Assembly: GCF_016613415.1 (NCBI RefSeq)
Contig: NZ_JACWCT010000100.1
Coordinates: 1 to 64,000, forward strand
Length of the DNA stretch: 64,000 bases
Origin: Methylobacterium ajmalii
GTDB taxonomy: Bacteria > Pseudomonadota > Alphaproteobacteria > Rhizobiales > Beijerinckiaceae
Reading direction: 5' to 3'
Shown: positions 18,433 through 26,124 of the stretch, one piece after another
How positions within the stretch are numbered: position 1 is the stretch's first letter
Layout of the letters: each line of letters starts with the position of its first letter
Program-made: the position numbers and the translations under genes
Notes under the pieces: model-generated
What the model was told of the DNA's origin: nothing
The model's database searches: none
Seen by the model: only the letters and a program-made list of their open reading frames with translations

Positions 18433-19836
18433 ATGATTGACGAACCCGTCCTCTTCTGCCTGCACTTCCTCGGAGGCAGCGCCCGTGAATGGCGCCCCCT
18501 CGCCGAGCGTCTCGGGCCTCACGCGCGCTGCGTCGCCGTCGACCTGCCGGGCTTCGGCGACGCGGCCGACCATCCCGGCGGCGACGTCGCCGCCATGGCC
18601 GACCACGTCGCCGCCCGCATCATGGCCGAGGGCCCGTCCGGGCCCTGGCTCGTCGCCGGCAACAGCATGGGGGCGAAGGTCGCCCTGGCGCTCGCCCGCC
18701 GCCACGAGGACGGCGACCCCACCCTCGCGGGTCTCGCCGGGCTGGTCCTGCTCGCCGGCTCGCCGCCATGCCCTGAGCCGATGGCGGAGGAGCGCCGCCG
18801 GGCGATGATCGCCTGGATCGACGCCGACCCGGAGACCCGCCGGCGGGAGGCCGAGGCTTTCGTGTCGGCGAATGTCGGCGCGCCGCTCTCTCCCGAGGAC
18901 CACGCCCGAACGGTCGAGGACGTGCTGCGCGCCAACCCGCAGGCCTGGAAAGCCTGGCTCGCGGGCGGCGCCAACGAGGATTGGCGCGAGCGCATCGGCA
19001 CCCTTCGCATTCCGGCGCTGGTGGTGAGCGGGGCACAGGACGGCGACCTCGGGCCGGAGGCGCAGGCCGCCCTGACCCTGCCCCACCTCGCCCGCCACCG
19101 TCACGTCGTAGCGCTCGGCGCCGGTCACCTGCTGCCGCTCGAGCGGCCGGACGAGATGGCCGGGCTGATCCGCGACTTCCTGGCGGCGCCGCCGGAGACC
19201 GCCGAGGCCCCGACCCTGCCGCCGGCCTTCGCGGCCCTGATCGGTTCGGAGCGGGTCAACACCCGCCTGCGCACGACGCTGCGCGAGCGGATGCGCGAGC
19301 CCGACGGCCCGTTCTGCTTGAGCGCGGAGGCCCGCGCGACGCTCGCCGCCTGCCTCGACCGGGTGCTGCCGCAGGCGGGTGCGGGGAAGATCGACCTCGC
19401 CCGCCGCATCGACGCGCGGCTGGCCTCCGGCGCCGGCGACGGCTGGCGCTTCGCCGCCCTGCCGCCGGACGCGGAGGCCTACGAGCGGGCGCTCCGCAGC
19501 CTCGACGCCGCCGCCCGCGCCGCCCATGGCCGCGCCTTCGCCGACCTCGACGACACCGACCGGGATGGTCTCCTCGAGGCTGCTGCGGCCGGGCGCCTGC
19601 CCGAGAGCCCCGGCGGGCTCGCACCCGACCTGATGACCTGCTGGTTCGAGGAATTGCGGGGCGAGGCGGTGCGCACCTTCCTCGCCCATCCGGCCGGCCT
19701 CGCGGCGATCGGCTTCACCGGCATCGGTGCCGGGGGCGACGAGGCCGAGGCCCTGCCGGGCTACCGCCTGACTGGCCTGAACGCGCGCGAACCCTGGGAA
19801 GCCCCGATCCTCGACACCGTGGGAGACGCCCGATGA
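18433..19836 (+). CDS. Alpha/beta hydrolase fused to gluconate 2-dehydrogenase subunit 3 domain
   Basis: The 467-residue product has two parts. Residues 1-255 form an alpha/beta hydrolase: [10 protein letters not shown] near the oxyanion hole, nucleophile elbow GNSMGA with Ser78, an acid in SGAQDGD near 203 and His in [11 protein letters not shown] near 231. Residues about 260-467 match the gluconate 2-dehydrogenase subunit 3 family: a helical domain with [11 protein letters not shown] and [20 protein letters not shown], ending NAREPWEAP. In classical enzymes this subunit is separate, carries a Tat signal and partners a GMC flavoprotein. No signal peptide is visible here. The stop overlaps the ATG of a GMC gene (ATGA), which supports the assignment. 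The reaction is unknown; a lactone or ester hydrolase joined to a polyol or sugar dehydrogenase is a reasonable guess. Confidence 0.85.
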
Positions 19837-21386
19837 ACCTCTCGGGGCAGAAGCGCTACAGCACCGACGAGGTCGTCGACGTCGTGGTGGTCGGCACCGG
19901 GGCGGGCGGCGGGCCGCTGCTGGCCGAGCTGGCGGCAGCCGGCCTCAAGGTCGTGGCCCTGGAGGCCGGGCCGAACTTCGATCCGGCCGGGTACGGCTTC
20001 GACGAGACGCTGGCCGACGAGATCTACTGGACCGAGGAGCGCCTGAGCGGCGGCTCGACCCCGGAGGCCTTCGGGGGCAACAACAGCGGCACCGGCGTCG
20101 GCGGCTCGACCCTGCACTGGGGCGCCTTCGTGCCCCGGGCCGATCCGCGCGATTTCCGCCTCAACACCGAGAGCGGCGAGGGCTGCGACTGGCCGATCGA
20201 CCACGCCGAGCTGGTGCCGTTCTACGACCGGGTCGAGGCCTTCATCGGCACGTCGGGTCCGACGCCCTACCCATGGGACGAGGCCCGTCGCTTCCCGCTG
20301 CCGCCGGTCCTGCGCAACGGGCCGGCCCAGCTGATGGCGGCGGCGTGCGACCGCCTCGGCATCACCGCGACCGACGCGCCGGCGGCGGTGGTCTCGCGCG
20401 ACTTCACCGTCGATCCGTCGGTGCCGGAGCGCAAGGCCTGCATCAATTGCGGCTTTTGCCACCAGGGCTGCCGCACCCGCGCCAAGGCCAGCATGGACGT
20501 GACCTACCTGCCGCTGGCGGTGGCACGGGGCGCCGAGATCCGCGCCGAGGCTCGTGTGCACGGGGTCGAGCGCGACAAGGCCGGGCGGATCACGGCCGTG
20601 ATCTACCGCAGCGGCGGCCGCGATCACCGCCAGCGTTGCGCCCACCTGATCCTGTGCGCCGGCGCCGTCGAGACGCCCCGCCTCCTGCTCCATCTCGGGC
20701 TCGCCACCGGCAGCGGCCAGGTCGGGCGGAACTACATCGGCCACGTCGCCACGCAGGTCTGGGGCACCTTCGCCGACGAGGTCGGAATGAACCGGGGCTA
20801 CCCGTCCTCGCTCATCACCGAGGATTACACCCGGCCTGAAGGCGCGGACTTTGCCGGCGGCTACCTGGTCCAGAGCCTCGGCGTCGAGCCGCTGACCTGG
20901 GCCAACTCCGTCGCCCGCGGCCGCGGCCTGTGGGGCACGGCGCTCACCGACTACTTGAAGCGGTACAACCGCGTCGCCGGCATCGGCATCAACGGCGAGA
21001 CCCTGCCGTGCGACGCGAATATCTTGACGCTCTCGGACGAGACCGACGCGATCGGGATGCGCAAGGCGCGGATCGATTTCGGCTACGGCTCGAACGAGGA
21101 CCGCCTCAACGCCCACGCCACGAAGGTGATGCGCGAGATCTGGGAGGCGGCGGGCGCGACGGACATCTGGGTCCTGGAGCGCGTCGCCCACACGCTCGGC
21201 ACCTGCCGGATGGGACGGAACCCGGACACCTCGGTGGTCGATGTCGAGGGGCGCAGCCACGAGGTCGAGAACCTCTGGATCTGCGACGGGTCGGTCTTCC
21301 CGAGCTCGCTCGCGGCCAATCCGGCGCTCACCATCATGGCGCTCTCGCTGCGCACCGCCGGCGCGTTCCTGAAAGGCCCCCGATGA
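19833..21386 (+). CDS. GMC family oxidoreductase (gluconate-dehydrogenase-like flavoprotein)
   Basis: This FAD enzyme has 517 residues. The dinucleotide-binding motif [17 protein letters not shown] begins near residue 17. A cysteine cluster [11 protein letters not shown] near residue 205 is typical of the branch that works with a subunit-3 protein. The C-terminus has GTCRMG and [20 protein letters not shown], the GMC C-terminal signature. The ATG overlaps the stop of the hydrolase-subunit 3 fusion, so the two are probably made together and form one complex. A cytochrome c subunit, found in membrane-bound gluconate dehydrogenase, is not encoded nearby. The substrate (sugar, aldonate or alcohol) cannot be read from sequence. 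Confidence 0.92.
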
Positions 21387-22261
21387 GCGACGATCCCCGC
21401 ACGGCCTATCCCCGGCCGCCCTTCCCGGGCGCGCAGCAGCAACCGCGCCCCGGCCTCACCGGCCCGATGGACCCGGCCCCGGACCACGGCGAGGAGAGCT
21501 ACGTCGGCAAGGGCCTGCTGACCGACAGGATCGCGCTCGTCACCGGGGGCGATTCCGGCATCGGCCGGGCGGTCGCCATCGCGTATGCCCGCGAGGGCGC
21601 CCACCTGGCGATCTCCTACCTCGACTCCGAGGAGGAGGACGCGCAGGAGACCAAGGCCTGGGTCGAGAAGGCCGGCCGGCGCTGCCTGCTCCTGCCGGGC
21701 GACCTGCGCGACGAGGCGCATTGCCGGGCGATCGTGCAGAAGACCGTGGCTGAGTTCGGCCGCATCGACGTGCTCGTCAACAACGCCGCCGCGCAGGTGG
21801 TGAACGAGGGCCTCGACGACGTCACCGCCCACGACGTCGAGGGCTCGTTCCGCGCCAACGTCTTCGCGATGATCTACCTGGCGCAGGAAGCGGTGCCGCA
21901 CATGCGGCCGGGTTCGGCGATCGTGAACTCGACCAGCCAGCAGGCCAAGGTCGCGGATGCGAGCATGCTGGTCTACGCCGCCACCAAGGGGGCGATCAGC
22001 ACCCTGACCGTCGGGCTGTCGAACCTGCTCGCCCCGAAGGGTATCCGGGTCAATTGCGTCGCCCCCGGCCCGGTCTGGACGCCGATCCAGCCGATCGTGA
22101 AGAAGCCCGAGCAGATGGAGCAGCTCGGCGCCGACACGCCCCTCGGTCGGGCCGGCCAGCCGGCGGAGCTGGCCCCGGCCTACGTGCTGCTGGCCTCGCG
22201 GGAGGGCAGCTACATGACCGGCGCGCTCGTGCCCGTCACCGGTGGCCAGCCGATGCTCTGA
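21383..22261 (+). CDS. SDR family oxidoreductase (YghA / general stress protein 39 type)
   Basis: The 292-residue protein is a classical short-chain dehydrogenase with an N-terminal extension (YPRPPFPGAQQQPRPGLTG) typical of the YghA/GSP39 branch. The cofactor motif TGGDSGIGRAVA, the NNAA motif and the catalytic Ser in NSTSQQ with YAATK are all intact, so it should be active with NAD(P)H. The ATG overlaps the GMC stop (ATGA), making it the third coupled gene of the operon. Members are linked to stress survival and act on alcohols or aldehydes; the exact substrate is unknown. Confidence 0.93.
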   Translation: MSDDPRTAYPRPPFPGAQQQPRPGLTGPMDPAPDHGEESYVGKGLLTDRIALVTGGDSGIGRAVAIAYAREGAHLAISYLDSEEEDAQETKAWVEKAGRRCLLLPGDLRDEAHCRAIVQKTVAEFGRIDVLVNNAAAQVVNEGLDDVTAHDVEGSFRANVFAMIYLAQEAVPHMRPGSAIVNSTSQQAKVADASMLVYAATKGAISTLTVGLSNLLAPKGIRVNCVAPGPVWTPIQPIVKKPEQMEQLGADTPLGRAGQPAELAPAYVLLASREGSYMTGALVPVTGGQPML

Positions 22262-22405: not shown

Positions 22406-22430
22406 GGAACGGCCGCTCCCCGGCCCCGTT
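22406..22430 (+). promoter_or_regulatory. Sigma-EcfG type promoter upstream of dps
   Basis: GGAAC (22406-22410) and CGTT (22427-22430) are 16 bases apart, matching the alphaproteobacterial general stress response promoter GGAAC-N16/17-CGTT read by EcfG under PhyR-NepR control. The CGTT lies 28 bases before the dps ATG. Dps is a known member of this regulon in Methylobacterium-type bacteria, which supports the match. Confidence 0.7.
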
Positions 22431-22458: not shown

Positions 22459-23013
22459 ATGGCGGATTCCAAGGGCAAGGCCGGCGAGCCGCGCCAGCAC
22501 CGTACCCGCAACGACACCGACTCGAACGCCAAGCGCGTCTCGATCGAGACCCTGAACGCGCGCCTCGCCGACGGCATCGACTTGGCGCTCAACATCAAGC
22601 AGGCGCACTGGAACCTGAAGGGCCCGCAATTCATCGGCATCCACGAGATGCTCGACGGGTTCCGCACCGAGATCGACGACCTCAACGACAAGGTCGCGGA
22701 GCGGGCCGTGCAGCTCGGTGCCACCGCGCTCGGCACCGCCTCGGTGGTCGCCGCCTCCTCGAAGCTCGCTCCCTATCCGACCGACGTCTACGCCATCGCC
22801 GACCACCTCTCGGCCCTGATCGATCGCTACGCGGCCTACGCGAACGCCGTGCGCGAGAACATCGACCAGACCGACGAGGCGGGCGATGCCGGCACCGCCG
22901 ACCTGTTCACCGAGGTCTCCCGCGCGGTCGACAAGCAGCTGTGGTTCCTCGAGGCCCACGTCCAGGAGCCGACCGGCGCGATGCGTGACGGGGACGGCAA
23001 GGGCGCGCGCTGA
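22459..23013 (+). CDS. dps: Dps/ferritin-like DNA-binding protein from starved cells
   Basis: Dps dodecamers oxidise Fe(II) with peroxide, store iron and shield DNA. The product is 184 residues. The inter-subunit ferroxidase ligands are visible in KQAHWNLKG and HEMLDGFRTEIDD. The lysine/arginine-rich N-terminus (MADSKGKAGEPRQHRTRND) could bind DNA. The ATG has GGAG nine bases upstream; a longer in-frame start at 22378 would place the coding region over the promoter and is unlikely. A GGAAC-N16-CGTT promoter lies just upstream and a terminator lies 94 bases downstream. Confidence 0.93.
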   Translation: MADSKGKAGEPRQHRTRNDTDSNAKRVSIETLNARLADGIDLALNIKQAHWNLKGPQFIGIHEMLDGFRTEIDDLNDKVAERAVQLGATALGTASVVAASSKLAPYPTDVYAIADHLSALIDRYAAYANAVRENIDQTDEAGDAGTADLFTEVSRAVDKQLWFLEAHVQEPTGAMRDGDGKGAR

Positions 23014-24235: not shown

Positions 24236-26014
24236 TCAGACCAGCATCTTGCCTTCGTCCGAGATGACGTCGCCCAGATCCGCCCCGGTCTCGCCGAGGT
24301 AGTCCGAGAGAAGCATCTCGTTGTGCGCCTTGCCCGACGGGATCATCGGGAAGCAGTTCTCGGTCTTGTCGACGATGCAGTCGAAGATCACCGGGCCGTC
24401 GTAGTCCAGCATCTCGGCGATCGCCGCATCGAGGCTGCCGGGATCGGAGCAGCGGATGCCCTTGGCGCCGTAGGCCTCGGCCAGCTTGACGAAGTCGGGC
24501 AGGCTCTCGGAGTAGCTCTCGGAGTAGCGCGAGCCGTGCAGCAATTGCTGCCACTGGCGCACCATGCCCATGTACTCGTTGTTCAGGATGAAGATCTTGA
24601 CCGGCAGGCGGTACTGCACGGCGGTCGACATCTCCTGGATGTTCATCTGGATCGAGGCTTCGCCGGCGATGTCGATCACCAGCGCGCCGCGATGCGCCAG
24701 CTGGGCGCCGATCGCCGCCGGCAGGCCGTAGCCCATGGTGCCGAGGCCCCCGGAGGTCATCCAGCGGTTCGGCTCGTCGAACTTGTAGTACTGGGCCGCC
24801 CACATCTGGTGCTGGCCGACCTCCGTGGTGACGTAGGTCTCGCGGTCCTTGGTCGCCTCGTAGAGGCGCTGGACCGCGTATTGCGGCTTGATGGTGGTGC
24901 CCGACGGCCAGTAGCCGAGGCATTCCCGCGCCTTCCAGCCGCGGATCTTCGACAGCCACTCGGTCAGGCGGCCCTGATCGGGCTCCGGCGTGATCGCGCG
25001 CCACTCGCGCAGCATGTCGGAGAGCACCGAGCCGCAATCACCGACGATGCCGATATCGGCCTTGACGGTCTTGTTGATCGAGGAGGCGTCGATGTCGACG
25101 TGGATCTTCTTGGAGAACGGCGAGAAGGCGTCGAGCCGGCCGGTGATGCGGTCGTCGAAGCGCGCGCCGATGCAGATCATGACGTCGCATTCGTGCATCG
25201 CCAGGTTGGCCTCGTAGGTCCCGTGCATGCCGAGCATGCCGAGGAACTGCGGGTCCGAGCCCGGGAAGGCTCCCAAGCCCATCAGCGTCGAGGTGACAGG
25301 GAAGCCGGTGGCGCGGGCGAGCTCGCGCAGCAGCTCGGAGGCCTCGGGCCCCGCGTTGATGACGCCGCCGCCGGTATAGAAGACCGGCCGGCGCGCACCC
25401 GCCATCAGCGCCACGGCGGCGCGGATCTTCTCAGGGTCGCCCTGCGTCTGCGGGTTGTAGGTCTTGTGGCTGTTGTCGACCGGGCGGCGGTAGACGCCGC
25501 TCGCGAACTGGATGTCCTTCGGCAGGTCGACGACCACCGGGCCGGGCCGGCCGTGCGAGGCGACGTAGAACGCCTCGTGCAGGATCCGCGGCAGGTCCTC
25601 GATCGATTTGACCAGGTAGTTGTGCTTGGTGCAGCTGCGGGTGATGCCGACCGTGTCGCATTCCTGGAACGCATCGGAGCCGATCAGGTGGGTCGGCACC
25701 TGGCCGGTGATGCAGACGAGCGGGATCGAATCGAGCAGCGCGTCGGTGAGACCGGTGACGATGTTGGTAGCGCCCGGCCCCGAGGTGACGAGCACGCAGC
25801 CGACCTTGCCGGACGAGCGGGCATAGCCCTCGGCCGCGTGGACCGCGCCCTGCTCGTGGCGGACCAGGATGTGCTTCACGGATTCCTGGTGGAAGAGCGC
25901 GTCGTAGATCGGCAGCACCGCGCCGCCCGGATAGCCGAACAGGGTGTCGACCCCCTGATCCTGAAACGCCCGGATCACCATCTCGGCGCCCGTCATGACC
26001 TCGCCCGCACTCAT
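24236..26014 (-). CDS. ilvB: Acetolactate synthase large (catalytic) subunit
   Basis: This ThDP enzyme condenses two pyruvates, or pyruvate and 2-oxobutyrate, to acetohydroxy acids. The ATG at 26014 gives [17 protein letters not shown] and 592 residues; GGGAG lies seven bases before it. The catalytic Glu is in [20 protein letters not shown] near residue 53. The ThDP motif reads [10 protein letters not shown], a variant of the usual GDGS...N. The herbicide-site and FAD-binding region ([20 protein letters not shown]) is typical. Transcription passes through a leader peptide and terminator hairpin at 26070-26175, so it is regulated by attenuation. Confidence 0.96.
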
Positions 26015-26069
26015 CGTCGCGCTCCCGTTCCTTGGTCTCGTCCGCGCTCTCGGGTCCGTTTTACGCAAC

Positions 26070-26093
26070 AAAAAAGGGCCCCGAAGGACCCTT
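26070..26093 (-). terminator. ilvBN attenuator (terminator hairpin)
   Basis: On the minus strand AAGGGTCC pairs with GGGCCCTT around TTCG and is followed by TTTT. It lies 56 bases before the ilvB ATG and 32 bases after the leader peptide stop. An upstream hairpin GCGCCACC/GGTGGCGC (26141-26148 with 26098-26105) overlaps the leader codons, and CAAGGGT is duplicated in both halves, so the RNA can fold in alternative ways. This is the layout of a branched-chain amino acid attenuator. Confidence 0.85.
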
Positions 26094-26124
26094 GCACGCG
26101 CCACCCTTGGGATGCCGAGCTGTG

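Follow-up and report, generated by a model that had tools for sequence, protein, structure and literature searches.

An alpha/beta hydrolase fused to a gluconate 2-dehydrogenase subunit 3 domain beside a GMC flavoprotein gene in Methylobacterium ajmalii

Gluconate 2-dehydrogenase is a membrane-bound enzyme of three subunits, defined by a PF13618 subunit (subunit 3), a GMC flavoprotein, a small subunit exported by the twin-arginine translocation (Tat) pathway and a cytochrome c. This raises the question as to what a subunit 3 domain is doing at the end of an alpha/beta hydrolase, as it is in a locus of Methylobacterium ajmalii that lies within the first 64,000 nucleotides of contig NZ_JACWCT010000100.1 (the window, meaning the whole stretch of DNA analysed). 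Here the gene for the fused protein is followed by genes for a GMC flavoprotein and a short-chain dehydrogenase/reductase (SDR). An earlier reading of the DNA letters alone (the sequence-only reading) had singled out the fusion and suggested a cytoplasmic multi-step oxidation unit; the fusion is real and old.

A hydrolase and a subunit 3 domain in one open frame

Both halves are recognised by Pfam on one polypeptide, as the sequence-only reading had it: Abhydrolase_6 matches residues 9-243 (71 bits, cut-off 26.3) and Gluconate_2-dh3 (PF13618) residues 299-432 (64.8 bits, cut-off 23.4) of a single open reading frame (ORF), and the border between them falls at about residue 256-262, or about 19200, close to the 19230 or so that had been proposed. 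The fused protein is the sole Gluconate_2-dh3 match within the source genome, and its structure model has a predicted local distance difference test (pLDDT) value of 83.5 and a predicted template modelling score (pTM) of 0.63. Three annotated plasmid records label it only 'alpha/beta hydrolase' or 'alpha/beta fold hydrolase', so that its second half is easily overlooked. No paper was found pairing 'gluconate 2-dehydrogenase subunit 3' with Methylobacterium and a hydrolase, or with GMC; the InterPro and Pfam architecture lists may carry the fusion.

An open frame of this kind could be produced by a sequencing error that joins two genes at about 19230. Nothing was found in favour of such an artefact, whose probability is negligible; it is ruled out by the relatives, since 76 of 111 Methylobacterium genomes carry the fusion as one uninterrupted frame (hand-counted rows, the match beginning no later than residue 5 and ending no earlier than residue 461 in that frame) and other genera carry it too. 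Other genomes, and close relatives above all, were where the sequence-only reading had let its claim stand or fall, and the domain pair is present there. Remains of it occur in three more genomes (in two frames in G103, on two contigs in G093 and as a partial copy in G077), and the other 32 of the 111 gave no fusion match. The 24 relatives of a first contig scan were 23 Methylobacterium fusions and one Pseudoroseomonas locus with the hydrolase only. Outside the genus, the fusion was found in two genomes of one further genus of the same family (G238 and G193; 347 genomes searched, Methylobacterium included), in another family of the class (G754; 385 genomes searched) and in another family of the phylum (G981; 398 genomes searched); the genome samples overlap and the three wider searches scored at most four candidates per genome, which makes the counts outside the genus lower bounds. 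It is also carried by plasmids of a Comamonadaceae leaf isolate, two Sphingomonas and M. bullatum; 4 of the 65 matching plasmid records reach at least 80% query coverage. All eight further fused proteins score above the hydrolase cut-off and six of them above that of Gluconate_2-dh3; L109 and L129 stay under the latter (16.8 and 12.9 against 23.4 bits), and their alignment is continuous nonetheless.

A single branch separates the fused class from all other sequences in both the GMC tree and the subunit 3 tree (support 99/98 and 100/99; 100% of bootstrap trees), each made from 33 author-selected sequences, with L112 flagged as a long branch in both; in the GMC tree its nearest neighbour is an unfused group, class B, described below. 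In the hydrolase tree (35 rows), the stand-alone hydrolases L025, L111 and L084 are placed within the fused set, in a part that is poorly resolved (4 changes, and 0% of bootstrap trees with just 1). They likely arose by later loss or fission, and a single fusion event is not evident from the hydrolase tree by itself. Because the GMC and subunit 3 trees each group the fused forms, these sequences are best read as descending from one fusion with later spread; no split ancestor, with a hydrolase gene beside a separate subunit 3 gene, was found in the loci examined. Both halves of the fused protein are under purifying selection: across six pairs, the ratio of nonsynonymous to synonymous substitution rates (dN/dS) is 0.21-0.28 for the hydrolase and 0.23-0.35 for the linker plus subunit 3, and 0.07-0.18 for the GMC protein.

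Table 1. Genes and domains of the locus, in window coordinates.
Feature	Position	Strand	Details
Alpha/beta hydrolase–Gluconate_2-dh3 fusion gene	18433-19836	+	single ORF, 467 aa
Alpha/beta hydrolase domain, fused-protein residues 1-255	18433..19197	+	Pfam Abhydrolase_6/1; triad S78, D203, H232
Linker + Gluconate_2-dh3 (subunit 3) domain, residues 256-467 + stop	19198..19836	+	PF13618
GMC flavoprotein dehydrogenase gene	19833-21386	+	517 aa; PF00732, PF05199
SDR family oxidoreductase gene (PRK06701/PRK06128-like), optional member	21383-22261	+	292 aa; adh_short_C2

The flavoprotein partner and the cellular compartment

Coupling to a GMC flavoprotein, another claim of the sequence-only reading, extends to all 32 fused loci, from at least four genera, in which the GMC gene lies directly downstream on the same strand; the 30 loci L026-L055 likewise have a GMC gene next to the fusion. 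Neighbours were counted by tblastn, the gene caller having misplaced or missed true genes (in the window it chose the strand opposite the GMC gene). ATGA overlaps join the fusion to the GMC gene and the GMC gene to the SDR gene at exactly the coordinates previously given, and Pfam places GMC_oxred_N/C on the former product and short-chain dehydrogenase families on the latter. A further GMC_oxred_C match lies just past the window end (G000:C38:64735-64896, G000 being the window's genome).

Of the proteins with solved structures, those nearest to the GMC protein are the fructose and glucose dehydrogenase large subunits. A four-cysteine motif, C203-x2-C206-x2-C209-x3-C213, is present in 71 of 71 fused-class GMC rows, and the same pattern recurs in three class B rows; three cysteines are found in 22 of 22 rows of the other unfused group, class A. 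The presumed active-site pair is conserved as well, H453 being present in all 96 rows and N496 in all 90 that have a letter there (6 gaps), in an alignment that includes some loci more than once. The CGFCH within the protein belongs to the four-cysteine motif and is hence not read as a heme c site. In the Burkholderia glucose dehydrogenase, Cys212, Cys218 and Cys222 ligate a 3Fe-4S cluster and Cys213 forms a disulphide to the small subunit (PMC6719666). The cluster ligands are matched by C203, C209 and C213 in alignment and in spacing (0, +6, +10), whereas the disulphide cysteine has no counterpart at its position in the window's GMC protein. An iron-sulphur cluster may thus be present in the latter, to judge from its sequence, and the absent disulphide cysteine would suit a reducing cytoplasm.

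The beginning of the fused protein points to the same compartment. An in-frame stop 11 codons upstream of M1 allows no longer start and leaves no space for an upstream signal peptide, the first hydrolase strand of the structure model begins at residue 6, and a motif pattern found no twin-arginine motif within the first 45 residues; the protein, which had been described as lacking a visible signal peptide, probably stays cytoplasmic. The 15-residue stretch directly before PF13618 resembles, by eye, the N-terminus of the unfused subunit 3 of relatives. The absence of an encoded cytochrome subunit also holds up: the 121-kb contig C38, which holds the window, has 0 of the 15 PF13442 and 0 of the 18 PF00034 matches of the genome, in a dedicated search confined to the window's genome and to these two families, other cytochrome families not being searched. 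In L005, L007, L008 and L082, called genes bearing CxxCH occur at distances above 2 kb from the unit.

The window's unit shares with gluconate 2-dehydrogenase a PF13618 subunit and a co-encoded GMC flavoprotein subunit, but it has neither the Tat signal on the small subunit nor, on C38, a PF13442 or PF00034 cytochrome c in the operon. By these defining features it is no gluconate 2-dehydrogenase, and it may work like one minus the respiratory part. Small subunits of the three-subunit dehydrogenases containing flavin adenine dinucleotide (FAD) are described as Tat hitchhikers (PMC6719666, PMC9727119). With this wider group (gluconate, fructose and Burkholderia glucose dehydrogenases) the unit has in common a GMC protein with a small partner and the spacing of three cluster cysteines; it differs in that its partner subunit is fused behind a hydrolase and carries no Tat signal.

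Unfused relatives, the hydrolase half and the lactone question

The arrangement is tentatively read, with confidence a little short of even, as a cytoplasmic two-protein dehydrogenase-hydrolase unit in which the GMC protein makes a lactone and the docked fused hydrolase opens it. We infer the docking, the cluster, the lactone as substrate and the order of steps as follows. The C-terminal half of the fused protein would be the subunit 3 partner of the GMC flavoprotein encoded by the adjoining gene, and its docking would put the serine hydrolase beside the dehydrogenase; the GMC protein would probably produce a lactone by oxidising a cyclic hemiacetal, such as an aldose, electrons would pass from FAD to the cysteine-bound iron-sulphur cluster, and the hydrolase half would open the lactone. 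The multi-step oxidation and docking of the sequence-only reading are retained in this conditional form.

Indirect support for lactone hydrolysis comes from the unfused relatives. The sequence-only reading had presented subunit 3 as normally a separate, Tat-exported protein, which was overstated, since unfused copies without an evident Tat signal occur in relatives. The domain stands outside the fusion in at least 18 of the 111 Methylobacterium genomes, among the matches listed. In the loci examined, 25 of class A (among L056-L075, L098-L101, L130 and L131) and three of class B (L093-L095), a GMC gene is mostly preceded directly by a called PF13618 gene of about 215-220 aa, the gene caller having missed or mis-started subunit 3 in several of them. 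The GMC protein of class A is about 41-43% identical to the window's, and that of class B 57-58% (L094, L095). Unfused subunit 3 copies with a clear start showed no signal-like N-terminus (by motif pattern, and by hydropathy for two, with no positive control); a looser Tat pattern rang for the called subunit 3 of L058, L063 and L073, where the called start is too far upstream, and in L067 and L069, where the RRFFV concerned lies in the protein body near residue 40. An unfused subunit 3, apparently without a Tat signal, thus also exists in Methylobacterium and relatives, which is new here. The unfused pairs (class A, for example L066; class B, for example L095) resemble the fused unit in having a PF13618 protein directly before the GMC gene, and differ from it in having no hydrolase and, in class A, in the three cysteines and in an extra membrane protein gene.

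Class A loci carry an SMP-30/gluconolactonase-like gene in 17 of 25 cases (25-100% identity to one query), an aldonate-dehydratase-like enzyme of the enolase family in 20 and a thiamine pyrophosphate (TPP) enzyme in 21, a content that points to a route from sugar to lactone, aldonate and 2-keto-3-deoxy acid. This argues for a lactone-forming GMC enzyme, in which case the fused hydrolase would act as the tethered lactonase within the fused class. The TPP-enzyme matches of the window's clade probably correspond to the acetolactate-synthase-like gene that lies at 24236-26104 of the window. In L109 there is a match to the enolase family, as well as a gene that is annotated as L-fuconate dehydratase, some kilobases off. 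The gene for the membrane-like protein is present in 23 of the 25 class A loci, the other two being cut by contig ends. Its product, of ~350 aa and without a Pfam or NCBIfam match, is encoded upstream of subunit 3 and GMC (L066:4780-5934), shows an internal duplication by eye (HYRG.. / LLHFRG..; FHAYNVGKR / FHAYGV.R), and keeps three histidines in 21 of 21 aligned copies and a fourth in 20 of 21, which makes it a candidate electron acceptor. It was found by tblastn near none of the 32 fused loci, and a search without positive control gave no match across the window's genome.

Taken more broadly, the fused and unfused classes could form a cytoplasmic, cytochrome-free branch of gluconate-dehydrogenase-like flavoproteins, in which subunit 3 would serve as a docking module and not for export, the hydrolase of the fused class would remove the lactone of the dehydrogenase, and the electrons of the unfused class would leave via the membrane protein with conserved histidines; this is possible, though doubtful. 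Copies of subunit 3 that lack a visible export signal, including a kind joined to an enzyme, would imply that the subunit does more than assist secretion, and in the fused class nature would offer a dehydrogenase tethered to a hydrolase of its product, of use in sensors and aldonic-acid chemistry.

The hydrolase half has the features of the alpha/beta hydrolase superfamily, fold and Ser-Asp-His triad residues, by Pfam, Foldseek and alignment. The intact serine nucleophile remarked on earlier is S78, and the triad of S78, D203 and H232 is invariant in 24 of 24 fused proteins and in 8 of 8 more distant ones; D205 is not invariant. Relatives of the hydrolase also exist alone, in Pseudoroseomonas (L025), Roseomonas mucosa (L111), L084 and L123-L125, and no subunit 3 or GMC gene was found within these loci. 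The chemistry of the hydrolase therefore need not be tied to the GMC protein, and the hydrolase half could be a mere scaffold or cytoplasmic anchor for subunit 3 with no linked catalytic step; this is very unlikely, since all 32 fused proteins keep the triad, even at identities as low as 41%, and dN/dS is lower for the hydrolase half than for the subunit 3 half in 4 of the 6 pairs. A glycoside hydrolase family 15 (GH15) gene adjoins the stand-alone hydrolase of R. mucosa (L111:3953-5791), and another lies near the fusion on the Comamonadaceae plasmid (L108:5999-7744), a possible substrate hint.

Foldseek relates the hydrolase half to esterases, thioesterases and a PcaD-like lactonase (PcaD 2xua, TM 0.78 by target), and its best NCBIfam matches are the enol-lactonases PcaDC and PcaD, the former, by its name, a lactonase fused to a second pathway enzyme; by comparison, the fused protein scores far under the cut-offs of both and has an unrelated partner domain. 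By sequence and fold together, the solved relatives are esterases and include a feruloyl esterase as well as the aryl esterase of P. fluorescens. These relatives favour a reversed order, in which the hydrolase first frees an alcohol from an ester, such as a plant acyl or phenolic ester, the GMC protein oxidises the alcohol and the SDR, where present, continues. The hosts and neighbours on plasmids are in keeping with it: two of the four hosts were isolated from plants (an Arabidopsis leaf and Chinese cabbage, respectively), and the polysaccharide genes nearby include the GH15 gene of the Comamonadaceae plasmid, pectinesterase and GH95 in S. insulae, and GH43 and beta-glucosidase in S. parapaucimobilis. 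S. insulae is, however, a soil isolate and the M. bullatum record gives no source, which leaves the plant link anecdotal, and the gluconolactonase-like and aldonate-dehydratase-like genes beside the unfused relatives suit a lactone better; ester cleavage as the first step is rather unlikely.

Several observations weigh against a lactone-opening unit all the same. Alpha/beta hydrolases are too varied for the fold to give the substrate; the PcaD score of 61.9 bits fails the equivalog threshold of 255.85, the PcaDC score is 86.2 bits against a cut-off of 390, and the stand-alone hydrolases, 42-58% identical, have no such dehydrogenase adjoining. The gluconolactonase-like gene was found by tblastn near 0 of the 32 fused loci and accompanies the unfused class instead, so that carrying the lactone reading by analogy from class A to the fused class is the weakest link. 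In all six pairs, evolution is faster in the subunit 3 half than in the GMC protein. Modelled alone, this half is a helical domain (pLDDT 81.7, pTM 0.77) that has no sequence match to the solved small subunits at E <=1 and no Foldseek match to them at E <=0.001; they are also absent from the VIA-align rows for the model. The Burkholderia docking mode is therefore not transferable with confidence. The missing fold match says nothing against membership of the PF13618 family; the solved gamma subunits, we assume, belong to another Pfam family.

Dps and SDR neighbours

In all 10 loci of the window's clade the unit is followed by a Dps gene, and in both Sphingomonas plasmids the fusion has a different Dps lying divergently next to it. 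This brings in another explanation: a detoxification or stress unit that, during starvation or oxidative stress, handles a damaged sugar or a reactive aldehyde and does not serve carbon feeding. An exact GGAAC-N16-CGTT site, of what we take to be the general-stress sigma promoter type (GGAAC-N15..18-NGTT), precedes Dps at 22406-22430 of the window and likewise in three other loci tested (L002, L005, L009); since the window's site is internal to the ORF called from 22378, Dps probably starts at 22459. The fusion itself is another matter: no exact site stands upstream of it in the 25 Methylobacterium loci (L017 has one with one mismatch), a general-stress promoter being rejected there, and a single exact one (L112) was found among 31 loci overall. 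The two Sphingomonas loci have a common one-mismatch site at -53/-54, to be set against background windows, 254 of 2932 of which contain such a site with one mismatch or none. No Dps was found in the other 20 of the 32 fused loci, within the sequence examined, and a stress unit is on the whole quite unlikely.

The SDR, which the sequence-only reading had counted as part of the unit, does adjoin it in the window but is an optional member, not a fixed part. Its protein scores 359.5 bits against NCBIfam NF005214, under the cut-off of 413, and a homologue of at least 48% identity lies within 3 kb in 13 of the 32 fused loci, from at least three genera (L083, L108 and L129 being of other genera). 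It is on the same strand in six loci of the window's clade and convergent in L011, L015, L018 and L019. By comparison, it is near 2 of the 28 unfused pairs (L073, L074). Among seven genomes compared, a closely related SDR is near the fusion in G000, G056, G193 and G981 and not in G090, G238 and G754; SDRs of this similarity number only two or three in each of these genomes (E up to 1e-60), which makes its recurrence beside the fusion across genera unlikely to be due to chance.

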